Below are positions 3,455 through 21,111 of a stretch of DNA of 41,736 bases, piece by piece. A program made the translations under genes and the position numbers. The stretch covers positions 1 through 41,736 of the forward strand of contig NZ_NMZM01000014.1 in the NCBI RefSeq assembly GCF_002751875.1, read 5' to 3'. The stretch's first letter is position 1. The number at the start of each line of letters is the position of its first letter. The notes beneath the pieces were generated by a model. The model had not been told where the DNA came from, searched no databases, and worked only from the letters and a program-made list of their open reading frames with translations. This DNA comes from Oceaniglobus indicus. GTDB taxonomy: Bacteria; Pseudomonadota; Alphaproteobacteria; Rhodobacterales; Rhodobacteraceae.

Positions 3455-3553
3455 TCTGGCGGAAAAGCTGACGTGCGAACCGGAAACCGACATTCGCCAC
3501 TGCGCAGCGAGTCCGGAACTTTGGGCTCAAAGCCGACCTCGGATGCGGCGCAG

Positions 3554-3570
3554 CATCATATGGTATGATG
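3554..3570. repeat. Inverted repeat upstream of the recombinase remnant
   Basis: CATCATA and TATGATG form a perfect 7-base inverted repeat around TGG, 56 bases before the start codon of the tyrosine-recombinase remnant. It could be an operator or an old attachment or arm-binding site. The 3455-3626 spacer around it holds no other gene that I can support. Confidence 0.4.
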
Positions 3571-3626
3571 TCTTGTCAACGTCGGGTTGTCGATGTGGGA
3601 GGGCGTGGTGGATCGGAGGATCCATC

Positions 3627-5832: not shown

Positions 5833-5961
5833 CTACGCGACATATCTGTTTGGAGGCCAGATGCACTTGGACGGGCGGGCGATCGACCAAAAGAGCGCAC
5901 CAATCAAAACCAGACCGGACAGCAGGCCTACGACCACTAGTATGCCTTGGGCAATCGTCAT
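5833..5961 (-). CDS. Small membrane ORF of 42 aa, probably the stump of a longer gene
   Basis: The start codon overlaps the stop of the upstream CDF gene as ATGA, a typical coupled arrangement. The peptide is one hydrophobic helix (GILVVVGLLSGLVLIGALFW) followed by a basic tail with CIWPP. A helix followed by a WPP motif resembles the beginning of isoprenylcysteine-carboxyl-methyltransferase-like membrane proteins, which are often found beside CDF genes. That assignment is only a guess. The frame stops 10 bases before the right end of the IS. The most economical reading is a gene truncated when the IS-linked deletion occurred. A genuine small membrane protein remains possible. Confidence 0.5.
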   Translation of the reverse strand: MTIAQGILVVVGLLSGLVLIGALFWSIARPSKCIWPPNRYVA

Positions 5962-7655: not shown

Positions 7656-7686
7656 AGACTAGTCTCTATAGTTACTGCAGCTTCAA
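7656..7686 (-). promoter_or_regulatory. MerR-type promoter/operator site 1 (transglutaminase-CDF operon)
   Basis: Read on the minus strand: TTGAAG (-35), the dyad CTGCAGTAACTATAG, four bases, then TAGTCT (-10-like). The -35 to -10 distance is 19 bp, longer than the normal 17, as expected for promoters that MerR-family activators untwist. The geometry is base-for-base the same as in three other sites in the window. It ends 30 bases before the start codon of the transglutaminase-like gene. This is the weakest dyad of the four. Confidence 0.65.
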
Positions 7687-7715
7687 CCCCTTCTTTTAGA
7701 AACGATCTCTCGCAA

Positions 7716-8351
7716 CTACTTGTCCGTGTGAACTGCTTTGTGGTGTTCACCGTGTGCGTCGCGTAGGATATTGACGCCGCCCCAGGCCGCGATCCCGGCG
7801 ATAATCACACCGACGACTAGGTCGGGCCAGTTCGTTCCCAGCCAGGCAACGAGGCCACCTGCGACCACGATTCCGAGGTTTGCCGCAAAGTCGTTCCAGC
7901 TGAAAGTATTGGCCGCGCGGATGTTGACGTCCGGATCTTTGAGCCGAGCGAGCAACCAGACACAAACTGAGTTGATGGCCGCCGCGCTCAGCGCCATGAC
8001 GATCATAACGGTGCCAAGGGGATCCGACCCACCGACATAGCGGCGCCAAGCATCATAAAGGATCCCGATGGCGAACACGATCAGCAAGCAGCCCGAGACA
8101 TTCGCCGCACCACGTTTCCATTTCGCAGACCGCGACAATGCAAACAGACTGATTGCGTAGACCAAGCTGTCTGAAAGGTTGTCGAGCCCGTTTGCGATCA
8201 GGGCACTGGAATCCCCGAAGGCCCCGGTCGCAAAAAAGGCCATGGCAAGACCCACGTTTAGACCGAGAACAATCCAAAGGGTGCGTCTTTCGCTTGCTCC
8301 TTTTCCTGCAGTCATACTTCCCATTCCGCTTGGTCGACTATGATCCTTCAA
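7716..8351 (-). CDS. Short CDF-like cation transporter
   Basis: A six-helix membrane protein of 211 residues with no C-terminal cytoplasmic domain and a His-containing tail (HGEHHKAVH). Helix 2 has D57-NLSD61. Helix 5 has FSWND (F150, D154) in place of the family's HxxxD. It thus belongs with the membrane half of the HMA-CDF fusion near the arsR gene: both share the DxxxD plus F-x-x-x-D pattern and the closing LVAWLG-x-x-WPDL segment. Likely a metal exporter, substrate unknown. Two later ATGs (GMGSMTAG) could be the real start, since no strong ribosome binding site precedes the first. It does not have the MerR-type promoter seen at other genes here. Confidence 0.8.
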   Translation of the reverse strand: MKDHSRPSGMGSMTAGKGASERRTLWIVLGLNVGLAMAFFATGAFGDSSALIANGLDNLSDSLVYAISLFALSRSAKWKRGAANVSGCLLIVFAIGILYDAWRRYVGGSDPLGTVMIVMALSAAAINSVCVWLLARLKDPDVNIRAANTFSWNDFAANLGIVVAGGLVAWLGTNWPDLVVGVIIAGIAAWGGVNILRDAHGEHHKAVHTDK

Positions 8352-8513
8352 CCTCTCGGGCAGATCAGAGTTCCGGATTGATTAATAATGGTCAGTTCCA
8401 TTTACGACCGCCGGGAGCTGTCAGTCAGGCGTCTCAACCAAAGTAGAGTATAGCCCTTTTTATGGGGCGATGAGATCGCGATTTGAGACGGTTTCAAGTT
8501 CAAACCATAAAGT

Positions 8514-8849
8514 TCAATTGGTTCGTGGCGCGGCCAGTATTATAGCTGCGCCGAGCAAGCAAACGGCTGTGCCAAGCGTATCCCACCTGTCCGGTCTGTG
8601 ACCCTCTGCAAGCCACATCCACAGTACCGAAGCCGCAATGTAGACTCCGCCATAGGCGGCAAAGGCGCGGCCCGCAGCAACCGTTTCGACTTGCGCCAGA
8701 AGCCACCCGAATACCACCAAGGCTACAATACCGGGTACGAGCCAGGCCGCGGATGCGCCGAGGCGCCACCAACTCCAGATCGCGAAACACCCGGCGATCT
8801 CGGCCAAGGCCGCAAGCGGATAGGCAAGCGCGGCAGGCATCTCAGGCAC
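8514..8849 (-). CDS. ynfA: YnfA family (UPF0060) small membrane protein
   Basis: 111 residues with four hydrophobic helices and the family's conserved stretches: [11 protein letters not shown], then [12 protein letters not shown], then [16 protein letters not shown] near the C-terminus. YnfA proteins resemble small-multidrug-resistance transporters; efflux of toxic compounds has been reported for some, but the natural role is unclear. It overlaps the end of the merR gene by eight bases, so it is co-transcribed and translationally coupled with the regulator. That arrangement suggests a function in the same metal response. Confidence 0.88.
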
Positions 8850-9270
8850 CGATCTCGTCGTGTTCGGTCAAACATTCGGAATGATCCCGCAACACCTCAA
8901 GCACCTTGCAATCGGCGGTACGTCCACCGCTGCATTCGTGAACCATGCGTTTCAGTTCGGTGCGCAGCGCCTTCAGACGGGCCATGCGCTGCTCCACCTG
9001 CTTTAGCTGGCGACGCGCAATCGCGTCGACTTCTTCGCAGGGCCGATTGGGCTGGTCGCTGAGGTCGAGCAGCTCGCGGATCGCATCAAGCGAGAAGCCG
9101 AGTTGTCGCGAATGGCGGATGAAGGACAGTCGGTCGAGCTGTGCATTGTCATAGCGCCTCTGTCCGCCTTCAGTCCGGCCAGGTTCGGGCATGAGCCCGA
9201 TCTGCTCGTAGTACCGAATGGTCTGCACCTTTGTGCCGGTCTTCTTTGACAGAGTGCCGATCGTGAGCAT
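8842..9270 (-). CDS. MerR-family metal-sensing activator (PbrR/CadR/ZntR-like)
   Basis: A dimeric activator that binds between widely spaced -35 and -10 elements and twists the DNA when it holds metal. The N-terminal helix-turn-helix ([25 protein letters not shown]) is textbook MerR, followed by a long dimer helix. C78 at its start, then C113 and C121 in the [11 protein letters not shown] loop, match the three metal ligands of Pb/Cd/Zn sensors such as PbrR and CadR; C133 is extra. I place the start at 9270, since GGAGG lies five bases upstream; the in-frame ATG at 9282 overlaps that site. It is divergent from the SCO-Dsb operon and followed by ynfA. Four MerR-type promoters lie in this window. 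Confidence 0.9.
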
Positions 9271-9374
9271 CTTCGCCTCCATGAAAAGTTACAGTCTGTG
9301 TAGGTTTTGCCGCCTCAATAGACAAGTGCCGGATTCACAGACGCGTGAGTTTAAGCCACAACGTGATTTCGCGC

Positions 9375-9405
9375 TTGAACCTCTAGTAGCTAGAGGATGT
9401 AAACG
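9375..9405 (+). promoter_or_regulatory. MerR-type promoter/operator site 2 (SCO-to-Lnt operon)
   Basis: TTGAAC (-35) is followed directly by the perfect dyad CTCTAGTAGCTAGAG, then four bases and TAAACG (-10-like), a 19-bp spacing. It lies between the merR gene and the divergent ten-gene operon, 24 bases before the first start codon. This is the best palindrome of the four sites and the most obvious target of the adjacent MerR regulator. No second site is evident for merR itself. Confidence 0.8.
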
Positions 9406-9429
9406 CGACAATAATCAAGAATCAAAATC

Positions 9430-10044
9430 ATGCGCGCAGGTTTGTCCCTTACATCGGCACAGAAATTTCTTTGGGTTTTGGCAGGCGTCGCGTCGCTTGC
9501 CTTCGTATGGCTTTTGCTCTGGTCGGACTATCGCGCTGACCGCGCCCGAACCGACAACGATCCAGCGTTTGTCGCTGCATTCGAATTGACGGACCACCAA
9601 GGTGTGGTTCGCACGGAAGAAGACTTTTCGGGGCGTTGGATGTTGGTATTTTTCGGCTTCAGCAACTGCCCCGATGTCTGCCCGACGACACTGTCTGAGG
9701 TCGCGGCGGTGATGGACGGTCTGGGCGACAATGCCGCGAGGGTCCAGCCGATTTTCATAACCATCGACCCCGAACGGGACACGCCCATGGCACTCGCCGA
9801 ATTCGTTCCGCTGTTCGATGCGAACATCATCGGGCTGACAGGTACGCCCGAACAGATCGCCGCTACATCCGAAACGTTTCCGATCTTCTTTGAACGCATC
9901 GAAGAGGCTACAGCTCCGGATGGCTACACAATGGGCCACACGTCACATCTGTTTCTATTCGACCCCGAGGCAGGCTTTGCAGACTCATGGCCCTATGGCA
10001 CGTCCGCTGAAGAGATTCTCGCCGATCTGGAAGAGAGGATCTGA
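9430..10044 (+). CDS. SCO1/SenC/PrrC-family protein, first copy
   Basis: A membrane-anchored periplasmic thioredoxin-fold protein of 204 residues. SCO proteins bind copper through CxxxC plus a histidine and deliver it to the Cu(A) site of cytochrome oxidase or act as thiol reductases. Seen here: one N-terminal membrane anchor (residues about 13-31), C80-PDVC84, the strand TIDPERDTP, and H170 in MGHTSHLF. It opens the operon that contains DsbB, a DsbA-like protein, PCu(A)C and a second SCO. The start has only a weak ribosome binding site in an A-rich leader. Metal-induced expression through the MerR-type promoter upstream is likely. Confidence 0.92.
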   Translation: MRAGLSLTSAQKFLWVLAGVASLAFVWLLLWSDYRADRARTDNDPAFVAAFELTDHQGVVRTEEDFSGRWMLVFFGFSNCPDVCPTTLSEVAAVMDGLGDNAARVQPIFITIDPERDTPMALAEFVPLFDANIIGLTGTPEQIAATSETFPIFFERIEEATAPDGYTMGHTSHLFLFDPEAGFADSWPYGTSAEEILADLEERI

Positions 10045-10049
10045 CCGAC

Positions 10050-10472
10050 ATGAACCGCGTACCCGCAGAAACCGCCCTCGGGCTGGCATGGATCGTTGCC
10101 CTCGTCGCCTCGCTTGCTGTACTTTTCATCGGCGAAGTGATGGGGCAGACACCCTGCGTGCTGTGCTGGTTCCAGCGCGCCTTCATGTTCCCGCTCGCGA
10201 TCATTCTCGGCCTCGGCCTTTGGTGGCGAGACGGCAGCGTCGGGCGCTATGGCATCGCTCTGGCGCTTGGTGGTGGCGTGGTCGCCCTGTGGCACATGGG
10301 CCTCTACGCGGGCCTGATCCCCGAACGCATCCAGCCCTGCACGGCCACCGGCCCCTCTTGCACCGATGATAACCAATTGGTCTTCGGCATTCCGATCCCG
10401 CTGATGGCGCTGGTCGCCTTCGCACTGATCGGGTTCCTGTCGGCACTTTCATTGAAGGAAACACAAACATGA
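10050..10472 (+). CDS. dsbB: Disulfide bond formation protein B family (DsbB)
   Basis: A 140-residue quinone-linked membrane protein that re-oxidises a periplasmic DsbA. It has four hydrophobic helices. The first periplasmic pair is C36-VLC39, followed by W-FQRAF (arginine at the quinone site). The second pair is C97 and C104 in CTATGPSC, spaced as in short DsbB proteins. It begins five bases after the SCO stop codon and overlaps the next, DsbA-like gene by four bases (ATGA), which identifies that protein as its likely partner. Confidence 0.92.
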   Translation: MNRVPAETALGLAWIVALVASLAVLFIGEVMGQTPCVLCWFQRAFMFPLAIILGLGLWWRDGSVGRYGIALALGGGVVALWHMGLYAGLIPERIQPCTATGPSCTDDNQLVFGIPIPLMALVAFALIGFLSALSLKETQT

Positions 10473-11128
10473 ATCGACGCGGCTTAATCCTGTCCGTTCT
10501 CGCCCTCGGCGTTGCCGGTTTCGGCGGAGCCACTTGGTACGCGACTCGCCCCGGCCCCGCGGCCGAAGCAAAAACCGTTGCGCCGGAACTCGCGGACGCG
10601 ATGATCCGCTCTTACTCGCCCATCCTCGGACCTGCCGACGCGCCCGTCACGATTGTCGAATTCTTTGACCCGGCCTGCGAGGCTTGCCGCGCCTTCCATC
10701 CGATCGTGAAGGACATCATGGCACAGCATGGAGATGCCGTCCGCGTCGTTGTCCGCTACACCGCGTTTCATGGCGAGGCATCCGAGGAAGCGATCCGCGT
10801 GCTCGAGGCAGCACGCATGCAAGGCGTTTACGAGCCGGTGCTCGAAGCCGTTCTGCGGGATCAGCCGAGATGGGCGTCGCACGGCGCGCCTGAGCCCGGT
10901 CTGATCCTCCAGATCGCCGCCACTGCCGGACTCGATGCAGAGGCCGCGCGCACGCAAATGCTGGCACCGGATGTCGTTGCGATCCTGAATCAGGATCGTG
11001 CGGACGTCGAAACCGTGGGAGTTCGCCAGACTCCTACTTTCTTTGTAAACGGCAAGTCGCTCGATCCATTCGGGGAGGCAGAACTGCGTCGATTAGTGGC
11101 CGCGGAAGTTGCCGCCGTGCAAAGCTGA
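10469..11128 (+). CDS. DsbA-like thiol oxidoreductase (DSBA/ScsC type)
   Basis: A 219-residue periplasmic protein with an N-terminal membrane anchor or signal (residues 5-23) and a thioredoxin fold of the DsbA/DsbG class. The active site is C70-EAC73 in FFDPACEACRAF, and the cis-proline loop is QTPTFFVNG. It probably introduces or isomerises disulfides with the DsbB encoded immediately upstream (four-base overlap). Metal ions such as Cu and Cd damage periplasmic thiols, so a plasmid-borne oxidation pair inside a metal operon makes sense. It could equally be needed to keep the neighbouring SCO and DUF411 cysteines in the right redox state. Confidence 0.9.
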   Translation: MNRRGLILSVLALGVAGFGGATWYATRPGPAAEAKTVAPELADAMIRSYSPILGPADAPVTIVEFFDPACEACRAFHPIVKDIMAQHGDAVRVVVRYTAFHGEASEEAIRVLEAARMQGVYEPVLEAVLRDQPRWASHGAPEPGLILQIAATAGLDAEAARTQMLAPDVVAILNQDRADVETVGVRQTPTFFVNGKSLDPFGEAELRRLVAAEVAAVQS

Positions 11129-11151
11129 ATGGAAAAGGCAGGACCAAAACG

Positions 11152-11619
11152 ATGAAAAAGATTATTATGACGGGCACACTGGCCGCGCTCTTGACCTTTG
11201 GAGGGCTCTCAGTACCCGCACTAGCCGGACCCGTGGATGTCGTCGTCGAAAGCGCCTGGTCCCGCGCCTCCATAGGGATGAACCGCCCCGGGGCCGTCTA
11301 CATGACGATCCGCAACACTGGCGACGAGCCGGTGACGCTGATTGGTCTTTCAACACCCCTCGCGATGATGCCCGAGATCCACGAGACGAAGACCAATGCC
11401 GAAGGTGTGAGTTCCATGAGCGCGGCAGGTGAGATCGCGATCGCCCCGGGCGAGAGCGTCGCGCTTGAGCCGGGCGGCCTCCACGCGATGTTGATGCGGC
11501 TACAACAACCCATGACGGAAGGGGAAACCTTTCCGCTGACCCTACTTTTTGTCGACGGGGGCGAGGTGACAGTCGAGGTGCCGATCCTTGGCATCGCCGC
11601 ACGCGGACCGGAAGACTAA
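11152..11619 (+). CDS. Periplasmic copper chaperone PCu(A)C
   Basis: A secreted 155-residue cupredoxin-like protein that hands Cu(I) to cytochrome oxidase subunit II or to SCO. A classic signal peptide ends in ALAG (about residue 26). The Cu(I) ligand set of the family, His-Met-His-x-Met, is visible as H77 in MPEIHET, M89, and H111-A-M113, with 21 residues between M89 and H111 as in known members. It is placed between DsbA and a second SCO protein, with which the stop and start share one base. These three gene types often travel together. Confidence 0.93.
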   Translation: MKKIIMTGTLAALLTFGGLSVPALAGPVDVVVESAWSRASIGMNRPGAVYMTIRNTGDEPVTLIGLSTPLAMMPEIHETKTNAEGVSSMSAAGEIAIAPGESVALEPGGLHAMLMRLQQPMTEGETFPLTLLFVDGGEVTVEVPILGIAARGPED

Positions 11620-12245
11620 TGCGACGAAGGACGATCGCAGGATACGGCGCGGCCGGTGCCGGTGCAATTGCCTTGACGCTCTTCGTCGGTTGGTGGCGGG
11701 TCGACGGACCCGGTGCGCCCGAACCTATCGAGCAGCGGCCTATGGCTCTGACCGAGATGGATTTCCGCCTGACTGACCATGAAGGCAACGAGGTCGGGCC
11801 GGAAACCCTGATCGGGCGACCGACGATGGCGTTCTTCGGTTTCACTTACTGCCCCGATGTCTGCCCGACCACGCTCTCGGACATTTCAGGTTGGCTCGAC
11901 GATTTAGGAGACGAAGCCAAACAGTTGAACGTGGTTTTCATCACGGTCGATCCCGAGCGCGATACCGTCGAGGCGATGGCAGAATATGTCAGTTATTTCC
12001 ACCCAGCGATCCGCGGCTGGACGGGACCGGAGGGGCAGATTGCGCGCATCGCGGACGGCTTCCGCGCTGCCTACGAGCGGGTGCCCACGGAAGGCGGCGA
12101 CTACACGATGAACCACACGGCCAGCGTCTTCCTGTTCGGTGCCGCTGGACGGTTCGTCACCATGATTGACTATCATGAACCGAGGGAATTCGCGGTACCG
12201 AAGATCCGCCGCGCGTTGGAAGAAGAAACGGAGGGAGCGACATGA
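11619..12245 (+). CDS. SCO1/SenC-family protein, second copy
   Basis: A 208-residue membrane-anchored thioredoxin-fold protein of the SCO family: anchor at residues 8-26, C78-PDVC82 in FGFTYCPDVCPTT, TVDPERDT, and H166 in YTMNHTASVF. It is clearly diverged from the first SCO in the operon. Its start overlaps the stop of the PCu(A)C gene by one base, and its end overlaps the M23 gene by four bases, so it is tightly coupled to both. With PCu(A)C beside it, this copy is the better candidate for Cu(A) delivery; the first may work with the Dsb pair. Confidence 0.92.
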   Translation: MRRRTIAGYGAAGAGAIALTLFVGWWRVDGPGAPEPIEQRPMALTEMDFRLTDHEGNEVGPETLIGRPTMAFFGFTYCPDVCPTTLSDISGWLDDLGDEAKQLNVVFITVDPERDTVEAMAEYVSYFHPAIRGWTGPEGQIARIADGFRAAYERVPTEGGDYTMNHTASVFLFGAAGRFVTMIDYHEPREFAVPKIRRALEEETEGAT

Positions 12246-13615
12246 GGCTCAGAACTTTTGCGGCAGGTGTCGCGCTTGCGGGGACCGTTTCGGGGGCGGC
12301 TATCGCATTCTTCGATGTTCTGTCGAAAGAACCCGTGCCGCCAGAACTTGCCCAGGCAGGTAGCTGGATGCCCCAGCGTCCTGAAGCTCCCCGGAGCCTG
12401 GATATTCCGTTGTCGCTGCCAGCTACGGCGTGGGTGGAAGATACACCCGGCTTCGGCCCCTTGCCCCTGCTGCAGGCCGCTGTTGTTGACAGGCCGATGC
12501 AGGCCATCGAACCGCCCCTGTTGACTTGGTCTCGCGACATCTCTTCTGGTGAAACGCTCGACTCCTTGCTTTCCGAAGCCGGTCTTGCGGGAGACGACCG
12601 GGCGGAAGTCGCCCTTGCACTTGGCGCGGAATACGATCTGCGACGGTTGCGGCCGGGGAATTCGGTCACTGTTGTTTCGACTATGGATGGCAGCCCCCGC
12701 ACCGTCTCGCTCGCCGTCGAGGACGGGGTGCGGATCGAGGTGCTTTTTGGCGAGCAGGTGTCCACGCAGGTCGTGGCGCCGGATCCGGAGATCGTAACCC
12801 TTGCTGGGGAGGCCGTGATCGACACCTCGATCTTCGCGGCACTCGACAATGCCGGCATCCCCGCCCGATTTGCCGTGGACCTTGCGCAAATGCTGGGTGG
12901 AACCGTGGATTTCCGCCGTGAGATGGCTGGAGGCGAGACACTAAGGCTTCTCTGGCGCGAGACGCGCGTCGGCGATGACAAGATCGGACAGCCGGACCTC
13001 GCCTTCGCCGCACTGGAAATCGGCGATTCGCTTTACGAGATCGTTTGGCCGGACGACGGCAGCGGTCAGGCGACGATCTACGTCGATGGCGAGGTGCTTC
13101 GCGTCTTTGCACAGCCAGTCGAGGGCGCGCGCCTCAGCTCGGTGTTCGGGCGCCGCACACATCCGGTCTACGGAAACGTCCGGATGCACACCGGCGTCGA
13201 TTTTGCCGCGGCAAGCGGGACGCCGGTACGGACGACGGCACCGGGCCGGGTCAGCTTCATCGGCTGGCGAGGCGGTTATGGACGCGTGGTCGAAATCTCC
13301 CATGGCTCCGAGACCATGACGCGCTACGCGCATCTCAGCGCCGTGTCGGAGGGCCTAACACAGGGCCAACGCGTGGCGGCGGGAGATTTGATCGGCCGCG
13401 TTGGCGCAACCGGCACAGCAACAGGTCCCAACCTGCACTACGAAGTCCTCGTAGATGGGCGTCCGACTGACCCTCTCTCTGACGACAGGCTCGCCGAAGC
13501 CGCAGAGAACGAGGTGGATGATGCCGCCGCGCTGTTGCGTCTGACCGAGGCGCGCGCGCTTCTGACTGAAAACCTTGACAGCGAAATTGCCCAGACGACA
13601 ACCGAAAGGCTCTGA
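12242..13615 (+). CDS. M23-family (LytM-like) peptidoglycan peptidase
   Basis: A 457-residue envelope protein with an N-terminal membrane segment, a long helical or beta middle region similar to those of MepM-type DD-endopeptidases (a LysM/OapA-like GETLDSLLSEAGL), and a C-terminal M23 zinc domain. Zinc ligands are H316-xxx-D320 in MHTGVDF and H399; H364 in RYAHLS is in place. The conserved H-x-H pair, however, reads N-L-H (GPNLHYE), so the first, catalytic histidine appears to be replaced by asparagine. If that reading is right, the protein may be a regulator or a weak enzyme rather than an active hydrolase. It overlaps the second SCO gene by four bases. Confidence 0.87.
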   Translation: MRLRTFAAGVALAGTVSGAAIAFFDVLSKEPVPPELAQAGSWMPQRPEAPRSLDIPLSLPATAWVEDTPGFGPLPLLQAAVVDRPMQAIEPPLLTWSRDISSGETLDSLLSEAGLAGDDRAEVALALGAEYDLRRLRPGNSVTVVSTMDGSPRTVSLAVEDGVRIEVLFGEQVSTQVVAPDPEIVTLAGEAVIDTSIFAALDNAGIPARFAVDLAQMLGGTVDFRREMAGGETLRLLWRETRVGDDKIGQPDLAFAALEIGDSLYEIVWPDDGSGQATIYVDGEVLRVFAQPVEGARLSSVFGRRTHPVYGNVRMHTGVDFAAASGTPVRTTAPGRVSFIGWRGGYGRVVEISHGSETMTRYAHLSAVSEGLTQGQRVAAGDLIGRVGATGTATGPNLHYEVLVDGRPTDPLSDDRLAEAAENEVDDAAALLRLTEARALLTENLDSEIAQTTTERL

Positions 13616-13618
13616 CCC

Positions 13619-14074
13619 ATGAAACGCATGACCCAAGCTCTGACCATCGCGCTCGCCCTGTTCCCGGCGGCCCAGGCCCTCGCAGAGGCAACAGCGATAG
13701 ACGTCCGCAAGACCAACGGATGCGGCTGCTGCCTGTCCTGGATGAACCATCTCGAGGAAAACGGATTCGCGCCGACGGGCGAGAACATGTTTGGCGGGTC
13801 GCTGGTTCGTTTCAAGCTCGACAACGGCGTGCCGCAGCGCATGGTCTCCTGCCATACCGCGCTCATAGAGGGCTACGTGATTGAAGGCCATGTCCCGGCC
13901 GCTGATATCCGCCGCCTTCTTGAGGAACGCCCGGACGCCGTCGGCCTCGCCGTTCCGGGAATGCCCTATGGCTCGCCCGGCATGGGGCCGGAAGAAAACC
14001 GTGAAGCTTATGATGTCTTCCTCATCCGCGAGGACGGGTCGACCGAAGTCTTTTCAAGCTACGCCGAAGGATAA
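13619..14074 (+). CDS. DUF411 periplasmic metal-binding protein
   Basis: A secreted protein of 151 residues: signal peptide ending ALAEA (about residue 23), then the family core with C35-G-C37-C38 in NGCGCCLSWMNHLEENGF, a further conserved cysteine in MVSCHTALIEGY, and the GHVPAADIRRLL and GLAVPGMP stretches. DUF411 proteins occur in copper and silver resistance clusters and are thought to bind metal in the periplasm. The gene starts three bases after the M23 stop. A role in binding Cu(I) or a soft metal next to the SCO and PCu(A)C proteins is likely. Confidence 0.92.
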   Translation: MKRMTQALTIALALFPAAQALAEATAIDVRKTNGCGCCLSWMNHLEENGFAPTGENMFGGSLVRFKLDNGVPQRMVSCHTALIEGYVIEGHVPAADIRRLLEERPDAVGLAVPGMPYGSPGMGPEENREAYDVFLIREDGSTEVFSSYAEG

Positions 14075-14086
14075 TCTGGCCCGCTT

Positions 14087-14869
14087 ATGGAAAACCTGTC
14101 TCCGATAATGCTCGGCTTTCTCGGAAGCCTTGCCGCCGGATCGCTCACGGCAGTCGGAGCAATTCCCGTGCTGTTCGGGCGCATCCCGTCGCGGGCGACG
14201 CGCGATCTGTCGCTCGGCTTCGCTGCCGGCGTCATGCTCTCAGCCTCGTTCTTTTCTCTGATCATCCCGGCGTTGGATGCGGCGGAGCCGATGTTCGAGA
14301 ACGGCGCGATGCCTGCGGCCATCGTTTGCGTCTCGATCCTTTTGGGCATGGGGGCCGTTGCATTGATGAATGAAAGGCTGCCGCACGAGCATTTCAGAAC
14401 GGGACGCGAAGGGCCCGAAGCGGCGTCCTTACGGCGGGTCTGGCTGTTCATCATCGCGATCACGATCCACAACTTCCCCGAAGGCCTCGCGGTCGGAGTT
14501 GGCTTCGGTTCCGGAGGTATGGAGGGCGGTCTGCCACTCGCTATCGGCATCGGGCTTCAGAATGCGCCTGAAGGGCTGGCCGTCGCGGTATCCCTCTTGG
14601 GCGAAGGATATCCGAAGCTGCGCGCATGGGGCATCGCCGCGCTAACGGGCATGGTCGAGCCGATTGGCGGTTTGCTCGGGGCGGGCATCATCACACTGTC
14701 GGAACCGCTGCTGCCATGGGGCTTGGCCTTTGCCGCAGGCGCCATGCTCTATGTCATCAGCCACGAAATCATCCCCGAAACCCATCGCAGCGGCCATCAG
14801 AACAAGGCAACGCTCGGCTTGGCCGTCGGGCTCGTTTTGATGCTTTTTCTCGATGTTTGGTTGGGGTGA
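14087..14869 (+). CDS. ZIP-family metal transporter
   Basis: A 260-residue membrane protein with eight predicted helices and the ZIP binuclear site: HNFPEG in the fourth helix, QNAPEG in the fifth and HEIIPE in a later helix. Most ZIP proteins import Zn or other divalent ions. In a resistance operon this looks contradictory, although some bacterial ZIPs equilibrate metal in either direction. The central loop between helices 3 and 4 has only a modest histidine content (HEHF). The start lies 12 bases after the DUF411 stop, and lspA follows four bases after its own stop. Confidence 0.9.
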   Translation: MENLSPIMLGFLGSLAAGSLTAVGAIPVLFGRIPSRATRDLSLGFAAGVMLSASFFSLIIPALDAAEPMFENGAMPAAIVCVSILLGMGAVALMNERLPHEHFRTGREGPEAASLRRVWLFIIAITIHNFPEGLAVGVGFGSGGMEGGLPLAIGIGLQNAPEGLAVAVSLLGEGYPKLRAWGIAALTGMVEPIGGLLGAGIITLSEPLLPWGLAFAAGAMLYVISHEIIPETHRSGHQNKATLGLAVGLVLMLFLDVWLG

Positions 14870-14873
14870 CGCA

Positions 14874-15356
14874 ATGCCAGTGCATAAACTATCTCCGGTG
14901 ATCGGTATTTTTGCGGCGCTTACCGCTTTCGTAATCGATCAGATCACAAAAGCCATTGTTGTGGCGAATGCGGCCTCCTTAAGCACTGGAATCGCCGTGT
15001 TTCCAGGTTTTAACCTTGTCTTTTATCGCAATGATGGCGTCACTTTCGGACTACTTGGCGGCGCACCATGGTGGAGCCTCATAGCTCTCGCTCTTGCCAT
15101 CTGCGGCTGGCTGGGGGTTATGCTGTTTCGCGCCGAAAATGCGGTTGAAACGCTCGCTTTCGGAGCGATCATCGGTGGAGCCTTGGGCAATGTTATTGAC
15201 CGTGTGCGATATCGGGCTGTAACGGATTTCCTGGATTTCTACATCAACTCAACGCATTGGCCTGCCTTCAACATGGCCGATGTATTTGTCGTCAGTGGCG
15301 TGGGGCTCTTGCTGGCCGCACCCTGGATCAGCGCGCGGCGTCCGATCAAGTCGTGA
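14874..15356 (+). CDS. lspA: Lipoprotein signal peptidase (signal peptidase II)
   Basis: An integral membrane aspartic protease that removes lipoprotein signal peptides. The 160-residue protein has four helices and the family boxes: IDQITK, N53-DGVTFG, then GNVIDRVRYRAVTD118-FLDFY and FNMAD136. D118 and D136 are the catalytic pair. I start at 14874, behind TTGGGGTG; a longer frame from 14853 would overlap the ZIP gene. LspA homologues are known in metal operons (PbrC of the lead-resistance operon), so this is probably a metal-linked extra copy rather than the housekeeping gene. Its stop overlaps the next start as GTGA. Confidence 0.93.
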   Translation: MPVHKLSPVIGIFAALTAFVIDQITKAIVVANAASLSTGIAVFPGFNLVFYRNDGVTFGLLGGAPWWSLIALALAICGWLGVMLFRAENAVETLAFGAIIGGALGNVIDRVRYRAVTDFLDFYINSTHWPAFNMADVFVVSGVGLLLAAPWISARRPIKS

Positions 15357-16930
15357 AGCCGGTAATTCTGAACTGCTTCGCTCTGCGCAAACGTCTGCTC
15401 TCGCGGATGACGCTTGGTTTCGCCGCCGGGGCGCTGACCGTCCTAACCTTCCCGCCTTTCTCGATTCTCCTGCTTGCTCCCGTTGCCTATTCTGCGTTGT
15501 TTGTCGGTCTTCGCGACCTCTCCTTCGGGCGTGCCTTTCTCGTCGGCTGGGCGTTTGGTCTCGGCCAGTTCGGTTTCGGGATTTCGTGGATCGCGGAAAG
15601 TTTCTACGTCGAGGCCGAGCGTTTCGGGGCGCTGGCGATCCCGGCCCTCGCGGGATTGTCCGCAGGTCTTGCGATTTTCCCGGCCATTGCCGCCGTGCTC
15701 TTCGTCGAAATCGCGCGGCGCAGAGCCATGGGCAGTCTCCTGGCCTGCCTCCTGTTCGCGACCTCCTGGACCGCGGCCGAGTGGTTGCGCGGTCACGTTC
15801 TGACAGGTTTTCCGTGGAACCTCGCCGGCTACGCTCTTGTTGATTACGCCGCCCTTCGCCAGCACGCCGCCTGGGTGGGAAGTTATGGGCTAAGCTTTCT
15901 CACCGTGTTCGTAGCGGCACTCCCCGGCGCGGCTCTCATGGCGGTCGGGCGACAACGATTGATCATCTCGCTCATGCCGCTGGCCGGCATCGTGACGATG
16001 TGGGCCATCGGCACGCTTCGCCTCCAGTCGGATGCGCCACAGCCACCGGATGTCGACCTGCGCATCGTTCAGGGCAACGTACCCCAAGAGGAGAAATGGG
16101 CGCCCGAGAACCGCGAGGCGACCTTCGCGCGCTATATCGAGCTTTCAACCCAGCCCGGCGATTTCGACGTTCTTCTCTGGCCGGAAACCGCCTTTCCCGG
16201 TTTCCTCGATGAGGATGCCCAGGCGCGATCCCGTATCGCGGCTGCGCTTCCGGACGGCAGCGTGCTGCTCACCGGAGTGCCGGACCGTGTACCGAGTGAG
16301 GATGGCACCCGATATTTCAACACCGTCCAGGCTTTTGACGATAACAGTGAGATCCTGACCGGATACGCGAAACACCATCTCGTGCCCTTTGGCGAATACG
16401 TGCCATTCCGCGGCTGGTTGCCGATCGAGCGGCTGACGGCGGGGCTGGGCGATTTTACGCCCGGACCGGGCCTGCGAACGCTTGCGCTTCCGGGTATGCC
16501 GCTGGTCGCCGTGGCGATCTGCTATGAGATCATCTTCCCAGGCCATGTGGTCGACGACCTGTTCCGGCCTGACTGGATATTCAACGCGACGAACGATGCC
16601 TGGTTCGGCACAAGTATCGGACCCGAGCAGCATCTCGCATCCGCACGTATGCGCGCCGTCGAGGAAGGCCTTCCTGTCATCCGATCCGCCAATACGGGCA
16701 TCTCTGCGGTCATCGACGCGAACGGAGAGATCGTTGCGCGGCTCGATACCGGGGAAAGGGGCATCATCGACGCTGATCTTCCCTCAGCGCAGCCGCCTAC
16801 GCCATATGCGCTTTTTGGGGACTGGATGTTGCTGGCGCTCATCTTGGCTTCGTGGAGCTGGGCTCTGGCGGCCAATGCGACGGCTAACTACCGCCGAATG
16901 AGAAAGACCGTCATGCAAAGATGTGGATAG
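15353..16930 (+). CDS. lnt: Apolipoprotein N-acyltransferase
   Basis: The last step of lipoprotein maturation: it transfers the third acyl chain to the N-terminal cysteine. The 525-residue protein has an N-terminal block of membrane helices and a nitrilase-like periplasmic domain with the E-K-C triad: E278 in LLWPETAF, K340 in GYAKHHLVPFGEY, and C390 in VAICYEIIF. The GTG start overlaps the lspA stop by four bases. Finding lspA and lnt together at the end of a metal operon on a plasmid is unusual. The 3' end overlaps the convergent L,D-transpeptidase gene by 20 bases. Confidence 0.92.
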   Translation: MKPVILNCFALRKRLLSRMTLGFAAGALTVLTFPPFSILLLAPVAYSALFVGLRDLSFGRAFLVGWAFGLGQFGFGISWIAESFYVEAERFGALAIPALAGLSAGLAIFPAIAAVLFVEIARRRAMGSLLACLLFATSWTAAEWLRGHVLTGFPWNLAGYALVDYAALRQHAAWVGSYGLSFLTVFVAALPGAALMAVGRQRLIISLMPLAGIVTMWAIGTLRLQSDAPQPPDVDLRIVQGNVPQEEKWAPENREATFARYIELSTQPGDFDVLLWPETAFPGFLDEDAQARSRIAAALPDGSVLLTGVPDRVPSEDGTRYFNTVQAFDDNSEILTGYAKHHLVPFGEYVPFRGWLPIERLTAGLGDFTPGPGLRTLALPGMPLVAVAICYEIIFPGHVVDDLFRPDWIFNATNDAWFGTSIGPEQHLASARMRAVEEGLPVIRSANTGISAVIDANGEIVARLDTGERGIIDADLPSAQPPTPYALFGDWMLLALILASWSWALAANATANYRRMRKTVMQRCG

Positions 16931-17423
16931 GCGTTCCGTCCTTCACCATTGCATAGATGTCCTCGATCTGCCGATCTGTGACTGCGATGCAGCCAGCTGT
17001 CCAGTCGCGGATGTCCGTCGGGTCGATGCCGGGGCGTGGACCACCATGGATGAAGATGTCGCCGCCGGGGGAAAGGCCCTGCGCTGCGGCAAAGGCGATG
17101 TCGGCCTCATTCGGATAAGAGATGCCAACTGAAAGATGATACGTACTTTCAGGGTTGCGCTTATCGACTATGTAGGTGCCCTCCGGGGTCCGACCGTCTC
17201 CCTCGAATTGCTTGTGACCCTGAGGAGCGAAGCCCAGCCCGATCGGATAGGTTTGCAGCACGCGATCGGATCCGTCGAGAACAAGCAAACGCTGTCCCTT
17301 GTAGAGCCGAAGTCGCGTCACTTCGGGTCCGTCATAGCTGCGGAACTTGCCGGCACAGCCCGACAAAAAGGCCGCTAAGCCACCCAACAGGACGGCGCGG
17401 CGGGGAAATCGGATGGTTTTCAC
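16911..17423 (-). CDS. L,D-transpeptidase (YkuD), predicted lipoprotein
   Basis: A 170-residue periplasmic enzyme that makes 3-3 cross-links in peptidoglycan or attaches proteins to it. A basic N-terminus and hydrophobic stretch end in the lipobox LSGC (C23), so it should be lipid-anchored, a possible client of the LspA and Lnt encoded across the junction. The YkuD domain shows H126 in IHGGPR and the nucleophile C145 in DWTAGCIAVTD. It lies 63 bases downstream of the P-type ATPase gene on the same strand and probably shares its MerR-type promoter. No promoter of its own is obvious. Confidence 0.9.
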   Translation of the reverse strand: MKTIRFPRRAVLLGGLAAFLSGCAGKFRSYDGPEVTRLRLYKGQRLLVLDGSDRVLQTYPIGLGFAPQGHKQFEGDGRTPEGTYIVDKRNPESTYHLSVGISYPNEADIAFAAAQGLSPGGDIFIHGGPRPGIDPTDIRDWTAGCIAVTDRQIEDIYAMVKDGTPIHIFA

Positions 17424-17486
17424 TGCTCGATGCCTCTTTCGTGAGGTCTGATATGGAAATAATGTTACCTTGCAAATGCCGCGTGA

Positions 17487-19841
17487 TCAATGTCCGTGGG
17501 CAAGCGCGGCCTTTGCGATCTGTGGCCCAACCTGCTCGCCACCGGACGGCGGTGCCTTGGCCTCTTGGCTGTTGAGCAGGCGCAGGGCGTTCGCCACCAC
17601 CAGCAATGACACACCCACGTCGGCTGCAATAGCGCCCCACATCGATGCCATTCCGAACGCGGTAGCGACAACGAAAACTCCCTTGGTCGCCAAGGAAATA
17701 CCGATGTTCTGATGGATAATCGACATTGTCCGGCGCGAATGACCGATCAGCCAAGGCACCTTGCCGAGGTCGTCGGTCATAAGGGCAATGTCCGCCGTCT
17801 CGATTGCCGCGTCAGAACCAACCGCACCCATCGCGATGGCATAATGCGCGCGCGCCATTGCGGGTGCATCGTTCACCCCGTCGCCGATCATGGCAACCAT
17901 GTCGTGAGTTTTGACCAGGTCTTCGATGGCTGTCACCTTGTCTTCGGGCAGAAGCTCAGCGCGCACCTCGTCGATACCGACCTCGGCGGCAACGGCGCGC
18001 GCTGTTCGCTCGTTGTCACCGGTCAGCATGACGATGGTCTTCACGCCCTGCGCGTGAAGTTGCGCCACGATGCCCTTGGCATCAGGGCGGATGCGATCGC
18101 GCAGTTCAAGAATGCCCGTCACACCGGATTCATCGCCGACAGCGACAAGGGTGCTGCCGGCGCCTTCGATCCGCTCCCGCAGATCCTTCGGAATGGCGTC
18201 GCCGAAACCCTTCTCCTCGGCAAACCGGTCCGACCCCAGCCAGATCGACCGTCCGTCAGTGCGTCCTTCAAGTCCCCTGCCGGGAATGGTGCGGGTATCC
18301 TCTGCGGCGGACACCTTGACGCCGTCGGCCTCCGCCCGCGCGAGAATGGCACGCGCCAAAGGGTGCGACGAACGTGCCTCCAGTCCTGCGGCGAGGGTCA
18401 TCAGATCTTGCGCTGAAGCCCCGCCCAGCGGGTGCACCGCCGCCACTTCCGGCTGGCCCATGGTGATTGTGCCGGTCTTGTCCATGGCCAGCGCCGTCGT
18501 CCTGCCCGGCGCCTCTACATAGGCACCGCCCTTGATGAGGACGCCCGCCCGCGCCGAAGCGGTGAGCGCTGCGACGATGGAGACAGGGGTCGAGATGACC
18601 AGAGCACATGGGCAAGCGATCACCAGCAGCACGAGGGCATTGTAGAACCAGTAATCCCAGGCTCCGTCGAAGATAAGCGGCGGCAGTAGCGCAATTGCGA
18701 CGGCGAGAGCCATGACGATAGGCGTGTAGATGCGGGCGAACTTTGCCACCCACTGTTCCACGGGCGCGCGGCGGGCATGAGCGTCGCCGACCATGCGGAT
18801 GATCTTGGCCAAGACGGTATCCGAGGCGGCCTTCGTGGCGCGCACCGTTAGTGTACCTTCGCCGTTGATCGTGCCCGCATAGACCTCGTCTCCGGCCTCT
18901 TTGGGTATCAAAGCACTTTCGCCGGTGATCGGCGCCTGGTCGACCGCGCCCGCGCCACCCGTCACCAGGCCGTCGAGCGGGATACGGTCGCCACCGCGTA
19001 CAATAAAGCTTGAGCCTACGGCGACTTGCGCCGCCGGCATGTCGGTCTCGCTTCCGTCATCGCGGATCACGCGCGCGGTGGGTGGCGCAAGATCCAGGAG
19101 CGCCGACACCGCGTTCCGCGCGCGCCCAACGCTCCAGCTTTCGAGAAAGAGGGACAGCGAAAAGAAAAAAGCCACTGTCGCTGCCTCGAAGAATTCACCG
19201 AGCCCGATGGCTCCGGCGACTGCGACAACCATCAGCAGGTTCATGTCGGGCGACAGCCGACGTGCGGACGACCATGCCTTCGGTGCCACAAGCCAAACGC
19301 CGAATAGGATAGCAACTGCAAAAAGCCCTGCCTCGGCCAGCGGCATCGGCGCTTCGCCGTGCCCCGCGAAGAGGCCGAGCGCCCCGCCCATACCTGTCTC
19401 GACGATGTGCCAGAGAAAACCCGCCGCCCAGAAGCCGCCGCTGAGAGCCGTAAACAGCCGCTGTCGTGCAAGATGGGCCGCTTGGTCGACCGACGCGTTC
19501 TCGGCATTCCACGGCTTCGCGGTCATGCCGGTGCTCGCGACAAGTTCCGCAACTTCGTCGTCCGATACACTCTTTGCGCTGTCGAGAATGGTCATCCTCC
19601 CGTTGATCACATCGAACGCGAGATGCTCGGCCCCGCCGATCTGCGGGCCGATTACCTTATTCAAGATCGCGACCTCCTCGGCGCAATCGAGGCCGGACAC
19701 CTGAAAACTGCGCCCGCCGGTTGGGGCGGGCGTCGTCGGTGCGATGTCGCCGCACGTTCCGGCGCTACCACAGCAACTGCCGCCGCTTGCCTGGGCGTCT
19801 TCGGCGTGATCGTGATCGTGGCGGTGGGTGTCGGACGGCAT
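17487..19841 (-). CDS. Zn/Cd/Pb-exporting P1B-type ATPase (ZntA/CadA type)
   Basis: ATP-driven export of soft divalent metals across the inner membrane. The 784-residue protein begins with a His- and Cys-rich tail (HRHDHDHAEDA, GGSCCGSAGTC), then an HMA domain with GLDCAEE. The transport-site CPC is C410-P-C412 in IACPCAL. The phosphorylation site is DKTGT (D454), and SHPLA and MIGDGVNDAPA follow. The last helix has the conserved Asp in ADVGVSLLVVAN, typical of the P1B-2 (Zn/Cd/Pb) class and not of copper pumps. It is driven from the MerR-type site at 19874-19904, and the L,D-transpeptidase lipoprotein gene follows in the same direction. Confidence 0.95.
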   Translation of the reverse strand: MPSDTHRHDHDHAEDAQASGGSCCGSAGTCGDIAPTTPAPTGGRSFQVSGLDCAEEVAILNKVIGPQIGGAEHLAFDVINGRMTILDSAKSVSDDEVAELVASTGMTAKPWNAENASVDQAAHLARQRLFTALSGGFWAAGFLWHIVETGMGGALGLFAGHGEAPMPLAEAGLFAVAILFGVWLVAPKAWSSARRLSPDMNLLMVVAVAGAIGLGEFFEAATVAFFFSLSLFLESWSVGRARNAVSALLDLAPPTARVIRDDGSETDMPAAQVAVGSSFIVRGGDRIPLDGLVTGGAGAVDQAPITGESALIPKEAGDEVYAGTINGEGTLTVRATKAASDTVLAKIIRMVGDAHARRAPVEQWVAKFARIYTPIVMALAVAIALLPPLIFDGAWDYWFYNALVLLVIACPCALVISTPVSIVAALTASARAGVLIKGGAYVEAPGRTTALAMDKTGTITMGQPEVAAVHPLGGASAQDLMTLAAGLEARSSHPLARAILARAEADGVKVSAAEDTRTIPGRGLEGRTDGRSIWLGSDRFAEEKGFGDAIPKDLRERIEGAGSTLVAVGDESGVTGILELRDRIRPDAKGIVAQLHAQGVKTIVMLTGDNERTARAVAAEVGIDEVRAELLPEDKVTAIEDLVKTHDMVAMIGDGVNDAPAMARAHYAIAMGAVGSDAAIETADIALMTDDLGKVPWLIGHSRRTMSIIHQNIGISLATKGVFVVATAFGMASMWGAIAADVGVSLLVVANALRLLNSQEAKAPPSGGEQVGPQIAKAALAHGH

Positions 19842-19873
19842 GAACGGACCTCTGGATTCGGGTGCTTTGTCAT

Positions 19874-19904
19874 GACATAGCCCCTACAGTAGCTAGAGCT
19901 TCAA
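19874..19904 (-). promoter_or_regulatory. MerR-type promoter/operator site 3 (P-type ATPase)
   Basis: On the minus strand: TTGAAG, the dyad CTCTAGCTACTGTAG, four bases, then TATGTC, with 19 bp between the hexamers. The first dyad arm is identical to those at sites 2 and 4. The start codon of the ATPase gene is 33 bases downstream. Control of a Zn/Cd/Pb ATPase by a PbrR/CadR-like MerR protein is the classical arrangement, so this site anchors the reading of the other three. Confidence 0.8.
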
Positions 19905-20023
19905 GAGAAAAGTTCGGTGGTATTTCCGTTTGTTTTCTTGCTAGACGGTCCGACGACAGCCTCAATCACGGCGTTAGGCATAGAAAGCCGATACGAAGAA
20001 AAACAGAAAAGAAAGGAAACTCG

Positions 20024-20308
20024 ATGCAGGTTTTGATGCTGAAGCAAAAAATGATGGTTGCGGTGGCGCTTTTGCTCACGACAGGATGCGCCATCCAGCC
20101 GACAGGGCCGAACGACACGGCAGACCAGACGGGCAACGTTCCCGAAGCCGTGGTTGCGATGGCTGCTCCGGATCAGGATGTTGCAACGGCGCGCCTCATG
20201 CCGGAAGACGGCTGCTATTGGTACGAACACAGCGGGCCGGTCGAAACGACGCTGCTGCCGTTGCGTACGGCGAACGGTAATCCGATCTGCGTGGCACGCG
20301 AAGCTTGA
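20024..20308 (+). CDS. Small predicted lipoprotein of unknown function
   Basis: 94 residues with a signal sequence and lipobox LTTGC (C22), so the mature protein should be lipid-anchored in the envelope. The rest is short and partly disordered (many Thr, Asp, Pro). It has a compact C-terminal part containing CYWYEHSGPVETTLLPLRT and a final NGNPICV, which gives two cysteines that could pair. I do not recognise a family. AAAGGAAA precedes the ATG. It is divergent from the P-type ATPase and convergent with the second L,D-transpeptidase. Lying between two probable MerR-regulated genes it may belong to the same response, but its own promoter shows no such site. Confidence 0.75.
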   Translation: MQVLMLKQKMMVAVALLLTTGCAIQPTGPNDTADQTGNVPEAVVAMAAPDQDVATARLMPEDGCYWYEHSGPVETTLLPLRTANGNPICVAREA

Positions 20309-20356
20309 GGACGCGCCACACGTTGCATCAACGCGCCTCAGACCTACGCACCACAC

Positions 20357-21019
20357 TCAACTTCGCGCGGTGACACTGTCCTCCGCTGAGTACAAATGTG
20401 CCGTCGATTCGATCTCAACGTTGGGATAAAGTTCGTTAATGTGAGCCATGACCATCCGCACGCAACCCGAACTGGCTCGACCGCCGATACTTCGCGGATA
20501 GGGCGTGCCGTGTATTCGAAGATAAGTGTCGCGGTCTCCGACGTACAGATAGATGGCTCGTGATCCCAAAGCGTTTTCGGGGCCGGGTTCCATCCCGTCG
20601 GCCCATCGTGCGTTTTCCGGATCCCGCTCGATCATGTTCTGGGTCGGCGTCCAATGCGGCCACCTCACCTTGCGTTTGATCGTGTAGACCCCGGGCTCAT
20701 ATAGGTTGCCCCGGGCAATGGCCACACCGTAGCGCATTGCGGTCCCGCTCTCCTCGATATGATAGAGATACCGCGCGACTGCATCGACATGGATGTCTCC
20801 TGGCACGAGTCCGGGTTTCGCGACCACGCGCTGGGGCAAAAAGCGCGGGTGTAGGCCCCAAGGGTTTGACGTAGCCGGATCGAATCCGGGCGGCGTGACT
20901 TGCGCGTCCCATTCAGCTTTCTGTGCCTCGGCGGGCCAGGTATCGGCCAACAGGGGGCTGGAAACAGACGCGGAGAATAGCGCCGTTGTTGTTTGAATGA
21001 AGTGTCGTCTTGTCAGCAT
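20357..21019 (-). CDS. L,D-transpeptidase (YkuD), second copy, possible Tat substrate
   Basis: A 220-residue enzyme for 3-3 peptidoglycan cross-links or similar transfer. The N-terminus MLTRRHFIQ followed by a hydrophobic stretch and LLADT looks like a twin-arginine signal. The catalytic box is complete: H170 in RIHGTPYP, SIGGRASSGC186-VRM. It is more canonical than the lipoprotein copy at 16911-17423, and the two are not close relatives. The MerR-type site at 21081-21111 lies 62 bases upstream, so it is probably metal-induced as a single gene. L,D-transpeptidases of E. coli are reported to be inhibited by copper, so extra copies could compensate during metal stress; this is inference. Confidence 0.92.
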   Translation of the reverse strand: MLTRRHFIQTTTALFSASVSSPLLADTWPAEAQKAEWDAQVTPPGFDPATSNPWGLHPRFLPQRVVAKPGLVPGDIHVDAVARYLYHIEESGTAMRYGVAIARGNLYEPGVYTIKRKVRWPHWTPTQNMIERDPENARWADGMEPGPENALGSRAIYLYVGDRDTYLRIHGTPYPRSIGGRASSGCVRMVMAHINELYPNVEIESTAHLYSAEDSVTARS

Positions 21020-21080
21020 GTCTTACCCTTTCGGTTCCCACCAGCAATCTATGGCAAGAACGGTATCTGTTCACTTTGAT

Positions 21081-21111
21081 TAGATAAGACTTCTAGTGGC
21101 TAGAGGTTCAA
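21081..21111 (-). promoter_or_regulatory. MerR-type promoter/operator site 4 (second L,D-transpeptidase)
   Basis: On the minus strand: TTGAAC, the dyad CTCTAGCCACTAGAA, four bases, then TATCTA, again with exactly 19 bp between hexamers. It has the best -10 of the four sites (four of six consensus bases). The only gene it can serve is the second L,D-transpeptidase. On the other side lies a fragment that looks like the beginning of another MerR gene. Confidence 0.78.

Follow-up and report, generated by a model that had tools for sequence, protein, structure and literature searches.

A plasmid-borne MerR-type metal sensor is predicted to switch on four promoters for metal efflux and cell-envelope genes

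Contig NZ_NMZM01000014.1 of Oceaniglobus indicus, here called the window (the entire contig C5, 41,736 bases, part of the 3.67-Mb assembly G000), carries a metal island with four sites of MerR-type promoter layout (S1 to S4), each ahead of a different gene unit, and with a gene for a CadR/PbrR-like MerR-family regulator (8842..9282, minus strand). From sequence comparison, we consider it highly likely that S1 to S4 are MerR-activated promoters of one regulon run by this protein, and a single metal-sensing protein very probably induces pumps along with genes for cell-envelope maintenance. The observations behind this view are the sites themselves, their spacing and conservation, the genes that they accompany, and their co-occurrence with this type of MerR across genomes. 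The four sites are as follows:

S1, 7656..7686 (read 7686-7656), minus strand: TTGAAG CTGCAG TAA CTATAG AGAC TAGTCT; predicted MerR-type promoter of the transglutaminase-CDF unit
S2, 9375..9405, plus strand: TTGAAC CTCTAG TAG CTAGAG GATG TAAACG; predicted MerR-type promoter of the ten-gene SCO-to-Lnt unit, divergent from merR
S3, 19874..19904 (read 19904-19874), minus strand: TTGAAG CTCTAG CTA CTGTAG GGGC TATGTC; predicted MerR-type promoter of the P-type ATPase and the L,D-transpeptidase LDT1 behind it
S4, 21081..21111 (read 21111-21081), minus strand: TTGAAC CTCTAG CCA CTAGAA GTCT TATCTA; predicted MerR-type promoter of the L,D-transpeptidase LDT2

The initial annotation had placed four such sites at these coordinates, each with 19 bp between the hexamers and with one dyad arm imperfect at the fourth; the sequences match throughout, and the deviating arm is the right arm of S4 (CTAGAA). 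When the window was searched with the strict pattern TTGAAS-CTNNAG-N3-CTNNAG-N4-TA, allowing at most one mismatch, four matches were found, against a mean of 0.001 and a maximum of 1 in 1000 dinucleotide shuffles. Dyad spacers of 0-2 and 4-7 gave no match in the window, and moving TA to distances 1-3 or 5-7 gave 0-2. The bare dyad (at most one mismatch) is mildly enriched, with 17 occurrences versus a mean of 10.15, a count equaled by one of 100 shuffles. Across the assembly, a TTGAMS variant (at most one mismatch) recovers S1 to S4 and one more site, on contig C3, compared with two matches for the reversed control pattern. With TTGANN and up to two mismatches there are nine matches versus 24 for the control, and because the control outnumbers them, these looser matches carry no meaning.

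The island is 99.3% identical across 15.3 kb to part of plasmid pP71_b of Phaeobacter piscinae, which is conjugative by prediction, and related DNA was found in 138 plasmid records, 92 of them predicted conjugative. The comparison drew on 80 loci picked by MerR similarity, 20 regions from other genomes, one plasmid near-identical to the island, ten further annotated plasmids, and five remoter ones. Sites were counted in distinct 215-bp upstream segments, allowing at most one mismatch unless stated; partial, cut-off, or <40% identity gene matches were omitted (56 for the ATPase, 13 for LDT2, and 0-7 for other genes). The MerR-similarity loci extend just 10 kb from merR, so the ATPase and LDT2 are under-sampled among the relatives' sites. 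A site lies upstream of the first SCO1 gene in 60 of 60 segments, of the transglutaminase in 47 of 48, of the ATPase in 16 of 17, and of LDT2 in 11 of 18 (12 of 18 at up to two mismatches). Inside the SCO unit, sites are nearly absent: 1/53 for DsbB, 0/50 for DsbA, 0/56 for PCuAC, 0/58 for the second SCO, 1/44 for M23, 1/59 for DUF411, 0/40 for ZIP, 0/43 for LspA, and 0/39 for Lnt, or 3/442 for the nine internal genes pooled. The three exceptions are broken-up gene orders in Shinella (DsbB), Paracoccus (M23), and Octadecabacter (DUF411). Sites also precede CDF2 in 4/48 and CDF1 in 2/39 segments; none was found upstream of LDT1 (0/35), YnfA (0/21), or MerR (0/70), and reversed and scrambled control patterns gave 0 upstream of every gene counted.

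Where the island has been rearranged, the sites (at most one mismatch) stay with their genes in nine of ten annotated relatives:

Salipiger: sites before LDT, ATPase, SCO, and transglutaminase
Roseibium (another order): sites before the SCO unit (first gene annotated as a short hypothetical protein), transglutaminase, and ATPase
Tritonibacter: sites before SCO, CcdA, and transglutaminase
Octadecabacter: sites before ATPase, DUF411, and SCO
P. gallaeciensis: sites before SCO, a cation transporter, transglutaminase, and two LDTs
Paracoccus: sites before SCO, ATPase, and M23
Martelella: sites before SCO and ATPase
Shinella: sites before PCuAC, DsbB, and ATPase
Celeribacter: sites before LDT, ATPase, SCO, and transglutaminase

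Loci L017-L127 together hold 257 sites (at most one mismatch), 247 of them with a downstream open reading frame (ORF) and ten without, which were set aside. By similarity, the 247 downstream ORFs comprise 96 SCO, 78 transglutaminase, 25 LDT, 23 P-type ATPase, 8 CDF, and 17 others. The distance from site to downstream ORF was not used as evidence, because longest-ORF starts are biased.

The layout is recovered when little of it is presupposed. A search for the bare dyad alone (at most one mismatch) in 143 upstreams of the four unit heads found it in 136; TTG starts exactly 6 bp ahead of the dyad in 132 of these, and TA stands exactly 4 bp past it in 130, the runner-up TA offset having 16. A dyad within a promoter spacer of 19-20 bp, characteristic of the MerR family, is seen in the relatives as at the four window sites. 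In the columns that the pattern leaves free, mean pair identity is 0.64 for SCO, 0.63 for transglutaminase, 0.59 for LDT, and 0.47 for ATPase sites, whereas the flanks have 0.28-0.33 (upstream) and 0.30-0.48 (downstream). The variable half-site bases are palindromic in 44 of 105 distinct sites versus 28.4 when shuffled, a value reached in two of 10,000 shuffles; this statistic and the column conservation are both inflated by shared ancestry. The earlier description of a -10 hexamer beginning with TA stands as regards TA, which is present and conserved, and not as regards the bases beyond it; we rejected a full "-10" consensus, conservation being limited to TA.

Sites and regulator also travel together. 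A scan of 244 genomes of the order gives 237 matches to the exact pattern, in 131 genomes, versus three for the reversed pattern, and a MerR at E <= 1e-30 is present in 139. Both occur in 130 genomes, a site only in 1, a MerR only in 9, and neither in 104 (Fisher p ~6e-57). In the 57 genomes that have a close MerR (E < 1e-60), the means are 2.6 sites and 1.49 such MerR genes per genome; in the 82 whose MerR matches are all remoter, they are 1.07 and 1.15. Per-genome pattern counts are complete, and 20 of the 105 genomes without a MerR match are listed. A looser scan (TTGANN, at most one mismatch) covered 44 genomes, from 45 of the 80 loci; outside it were L024, L034, L035, L039, L040, L042, L044-L047, L049, L051, L052, L054-L058, L060-L067, L070-L073, L076, L079, L081, L089, and L092.

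The regulator scores above cut-off for MerR-type helix-turn-helix (HTH) and DNA-binding domains (PF00376, PF13411, PF09278), which places it in the metal-sensing MerR family (COG0789). Its cysteines are Cys82, Cys117, Cys125, and Cys137, or 78, 113, 121, and 133 counted from the second Met (window 9270). The initial annotation's statement that a MerR protein with C78, C113, and C121 is encoded between the sites holds in the latter numbering, which uses the start annotated in the near-identical plasmid. The closest solved structures are 5gpe, which we take to be PbrR691, and CadR 6jgv. Residues Cys82, Cys117, and Cys125 align with C77, C112, and C119 of CadR, its Cd(II) ligands according to the excerpted PMC9909328, and the three are kept in 42 of 42 distinct homologs of at least 65% identity (partial homologs and those with an internal stop left out). 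A cysteine stands where CueR has Ser77, which sets the protein apart from the CueR group (1+ ions). By analogy with characterized sensors, the inducing metal is probably a soft 2+ ion, namely Cd, Pb, Zn, or Hg, with no choice among them. The equivalog model of the CadR/PbrR group (TIGR02047) gives 116.7 bits against a cut-off of 151.45, and the best NCBIfam score is that of the CueR model, at 123.2 of the 147.4 bits required.

The genes of the island are given below. On the minus strand the order is merR-ynfA-short CDF-transglutaminase-CDF and, separately, ATPase-LDT1 and LDT2; on the plus strand it is SCO-DsbB-DsbA-PCuAC-SCO-M23-DUF411-ZIP-LspA-Lnt.

5958..6890, minus: CDF cation efflux transporter (Pfam Cation_efflux, ZT_dimer; TIGR01297)
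6865..7626, minus: transglutaminase-like protein, first gene behind S1 (Pfam Transglut_core)
7716..8351, minus: short CDF-type cation transporter, no dimerization domain matched (Pfam Cation_efflux)
8514..8849, minus: YnfA family membrane protein, overlapping merR (NCBIfam NF002586 above cut-off)
8842..9282, minus: MerR-family regulator (Pfam MerR, MerR_1, MerR-DNA-bind; start annotated in the near-identical plasmid corresponds to window 9270)
9430..10044, plus: SCO1/SenC protein, first gene behind S2 (Pfam SCO1-SenC)
10050..10472, plus: DsbB-like protein (Pfam DsbB)
10469..11128, plus: DsbA-like thioredoxin-fold protein with a CEAC motif (Pfam Thioredoxin_4, DSBA; sequence)
11152..11619, plus: PCu(A)C copper chaperone (Pfam PCuAC)
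11619..12245, plus: second SCO1/SenC protein (Pfam SCO1-SenC)
12242..13615, plus: M23 metallopeptidase (Pfam Peptidase_M23)
13619..14074, plus: DUF411 protein with an NGCGCC stretch (Pfam DUF411; sequence)
14087..14869, plus: ZIP metal transporter (Pfam Zip)
14853..15356, plus: LspA signal peptidase II (Pfam Peptidase_A8)
15323..16930 (start per the annotation of L097), plus: Lnt apolipoprotein N-acyltransferase (Pfam LNT_N, CN_hydrolase on the longer ORF 15257-16930)
16911..17423, minus: L,D-transpeptidase LDT1, behind the ATPase, with a TAGC motif (Pfam YkuD; sequence)
17487..19841, minus: P1B-type ATPase of cadmium/zinc type, first gene behind S3 (TIGR01525, TIGR01512 above cut-off; copper model TIGR01511 below); contains CPC, ATK, and ADVG stretches
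20357..21019, minus: L,D-transpeptidase LDT2, first gene behind S4, with an SSGC motif (Pfam YkuD; sequence)

The proposal of the initial annotation, that the four promoters form one MerR regulon linking the four units, is supported by the unit-head sites in rearranged relatives, by their right orientation, by their near-absence inside units, and by the co-occurrence with this type of MerR. Several results weigh against it. The bases after TA in the "-10" carry just 0.01-0.17 bits per column, and the regulator falls under the cut-off of all 18 NCBIfam models matched, which is why we keep the name CadR/PbrR-like rather than CadR. No site precedes LDT2 in six of the 18 distinct upstreams even at up to two mismatches, and one transglutaminase (1/48) and one ATPase upstream (1/17) also have none. 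Nine of the 244 genomes carry such a MerR without the exact site, and in the tenth annotated relative, P. inhibens 2.10 (pPGA2_239; L103 16001-16432), a MerR of 74% identity has no site at up to two mismatches within 16 kb. The counts among relatives are inflated by shared ancestry and overlapping loci; the looser scan, with 280 matches versus 65 for the reversed pattern, contains chance matches, so that lone loose matches outside the island are not to be trusted. The genome also encodes another MerR of this type, likewise accompanied by such a site. This paralog (contig C3, 88142-88564) is 68% identical to the window MerR, matches it at 55 of the 69 positions in the DNA-binding half, and keeps the cysteines; its site (88041-88067) separates it from a divergent gene for a P-type ATPase that has a heavy-metal-associated (HMA) domain (L015 15736-18189), whose start position is ambiguous, as the listed ORF extends past the site.

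Cross-talk is possible given this second MerR with its own site, and the paralog might share or dominate control of S1 to S4, making a regulon of two contigs and two regulators. We regard this as a serious but less probable alternative: of the close-type genomes, 33 have a single MerR at E <= 1e-30, and 22 of these carry at least two sites (10 carry one, 1 carries none), so the multi-site pattern needs no second regulator. That the protein mainly represses promoters at these sites is improbable, even though physiological data suggest a repressor in the case of C. metallidurans CadR (PMC11580412, as excerpted). TTG and TA are fixed 19 bp apart in nearly all sites, a spacing that a simple repressor would not need, and PbrR activates at a 19-bp promoter (excerpted PMC3431237). 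A copper regulon of CueR type could be suspected from the SCO, PCu(A)C, and DUF411 genes of the ten-gene unit and from the top, though sub-threshold, score of the CueR model. It is an unlikely explanation, because the residue separating 2+ from 1+ sensors is Cys and because the ATPase scores above the cut-off of the cadmium-type model but below that of the copper one; moreover, two C21 sites outside the window look like the HmrR consensus ACCTTCCAG-(3)-CTGGAAGG (PMC1526738, as excerpted), unlike S1 to S4. MerR-type promoters are short and degenerate, and the bare dyad is only mildly enriched in the window, so a chance or compositional resemblance of no regulatory meaning has to be considered; the shuffles (0.001 vs 4), the upstream counts, the fixed TTG/TA spacing, and the 237 exact versus 3 reversed matches in the 244 genomes make it exceedingly improbable.

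If S1 to S4 are MerR-activated promoters, the regulator would be expected to work as studied MerR proteins do, sensing a 2+ ion and activating transcription by distorting the DNA. A MerR dimer would occupy the CTNNAG-N3-CTNNAG dyad inside the 19-bp spacer and, in the absence of metal, would keep the -35 and -10 out of phase. Binding of a divalent soft metal at the three-cysteine site would kink and untwist the DNA, and RNA polymerase could then start. The predicted targets are the Zn/Cd-type P1B ATPase with LDT1, the transglutaminase-CDF unit, the SCO-Dsb-PCuAC-M23-DUF411-ZIP-LspA-Lnt unit, and LDT2. Judging from these gene families, the outcome would be efflux together with upkeep of lipoproteins, disulfides, copper delivery, and peptidoglycan.

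One plasmid sensor apparently runs four or five units, mostly of envelope-maintenance genes that are not transporters. The possible fifth is seen in relatives: Roseobacter sp. MED193 (L108), Phaeovulum (L111), and G174 (L121) each have a further site, placed ahead of a third LDT-like gene. Pfam YkuD was confirmed for the one tested, L111, and in L121 the gene adjoins merR. In the window, this fifth site and third LDT are absent on the side of the island that carries an ISL3-type element (4135..5822, no strand assigned; 28-nt inverted repeats at 4135-4162 and 5795-5822). Similarity to L108 ends at 5845, beside the element, and sequence with 91% identity to the element comes after the LDT-like ORF of L108 as well. 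A single long ORF (window 3423-5813) joins a stretch that by eye looks recombinase-like to the ISL3-type transposase, and the inverted repeats enclose its transposase part.

Cysteines stand in the expected motifs of LDT1, LDT2, Lnt, and DsbA, and we take them to be catalytic. It is conceivable, as a tentative proposal, that the island is also a "spare parts" system, in which the metal sensor induces, besides efflux, duplicates of thiol-dependent envelope enzymes that soft metals poison; the set might comprise the L,D-transpeptidases (two here, a third in some relatives), Lnt, the transglutaminase-like protein, DsbA/DsbB, and SCO. The proposal is made because copper inhibits L,D-transpeptidases (PMC8263019, as excerpted, citing Peters 2018). 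If true, the replacement of poisoned targets would contribute to metal tolerance alongside pumping. The one-sensor regulon, if confirmed, would link the upkeep of lipoproteins, disulfides, and peptidoglycan with metal stress on marine plasmids; it also offers promoters that can be tested.

Other features were recorded in passing. Between the ATPase and LDT2 (window 20024-20308, plus strand) lies a small lipoprotein-like ORF (LLTTGC), hypothetical in the relatives' annotation; the ORF enclosing it has no Pfam match. A CDF-type protein is encoded at window 2603-3454, with a weak, below cut-off match to an N-terminal heavy-metal-associated domain. In Phaeovulum vinaykumarii (L110 3249), a site lies ahead of an ArsP-type permease gene, and the annotated neighbors of the 74% MerR of L103 include no named metal-resistance gene.

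Set against known systems, the layout itself is shared. In remoter relatives (L089 3919, L120 1717, L129 5277, L132 2350), genes for MerT-type mercury transport also have sites with this layout in front of them, so it is common to several MerR relatives; a pattern unique to this MerR was rejected, as MerT and CDF-type genes are preceded by it there. CueR, HmrR, and MerR (mer) use the same long-spacer promoter design, but their half-site consensuses differ (ACCTTCC..., TCCGTAC 7-4-7; PMC1526738, as excerpted), and CueR has Ser77. Pseudomonas CadR (the cadA/cadR divergon) has in common with the window the CTNNAG-N3-CTNNAG core dyad, the three cysteines, an ATPase target, and, in most promoters described, the 19-bp spacer (excerpts of PMC1526738, PMC12301328, PMC9909328). 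In vitro selection with P. aeruginosa CadR yielded AACCCTGTAGTTACTACAGGGTT, a site that shares this core layout (PMC12301328, in part), and the CT..AG-N3-CT..AG letters agree save one S4 arm base. Over the full 23-mer, 14-15 of 23 positions agree; similarity at this length was rejected as evidence and the core layout alone used, because such agreement also arises by chance elsewhere in the window. The window differs in its -35 (TTGAAC/G) and in having SCO, rather than an ATPase, divergent from merR.

The pbr operon of C. metallidurans pMOL30 is likewise plasmid-borne, with a MerR-type 19-bp promoter, a P-type ATPase, and a signal peptidase II (PbrC-like LspA) (PMC3431237, PMC1526738, both as excerpted). 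Its -35 is TTGACT, and PbrR also requires C14 and C134, whereas the window protein has no Cys in the HTH, to which this comparison is limited. The ATPase and LspA are present in the window; PbrT, PbrB, and PbrD had no match in the general Pfam results, no dedicated search having been made. In Mesorhizobium metallidurans STM 2683 and Mesorhizobium STM 4661, RNA-seq shows a P1B ATPase (CadA) induced by Zn and Cd in both strains; a CcdA-like neighbor gene is induced by both metals in STM 2683, LspA by Zn and not significantly by Cd, and in STM 4661 a putative CDF and thioredoxin-like proteins are induced as well. The likeness to the window lies in the induced gene families, the excerpted account (PMC3668242) giving no operator or common regulator.

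Among the entries listed from the open-licence literature searched, we found no description of a multi-unit regulon of this kind. P. aeruginosa CadR has two high-affinity genomic sites, cadA and zrd, in the excerpted account, compared with four units in the window that include envelope and copper-delivery genes. For "CadR-PbrR-like" regulators, a group into which the window protein may also fall, 110 sites are counted for 100 regulators (PMC5045206, in part). A plasmid sensor with the predicted reach of four units over both efflux and envelope genes appears to differ from the roughly one site per regulator that is usually counted.

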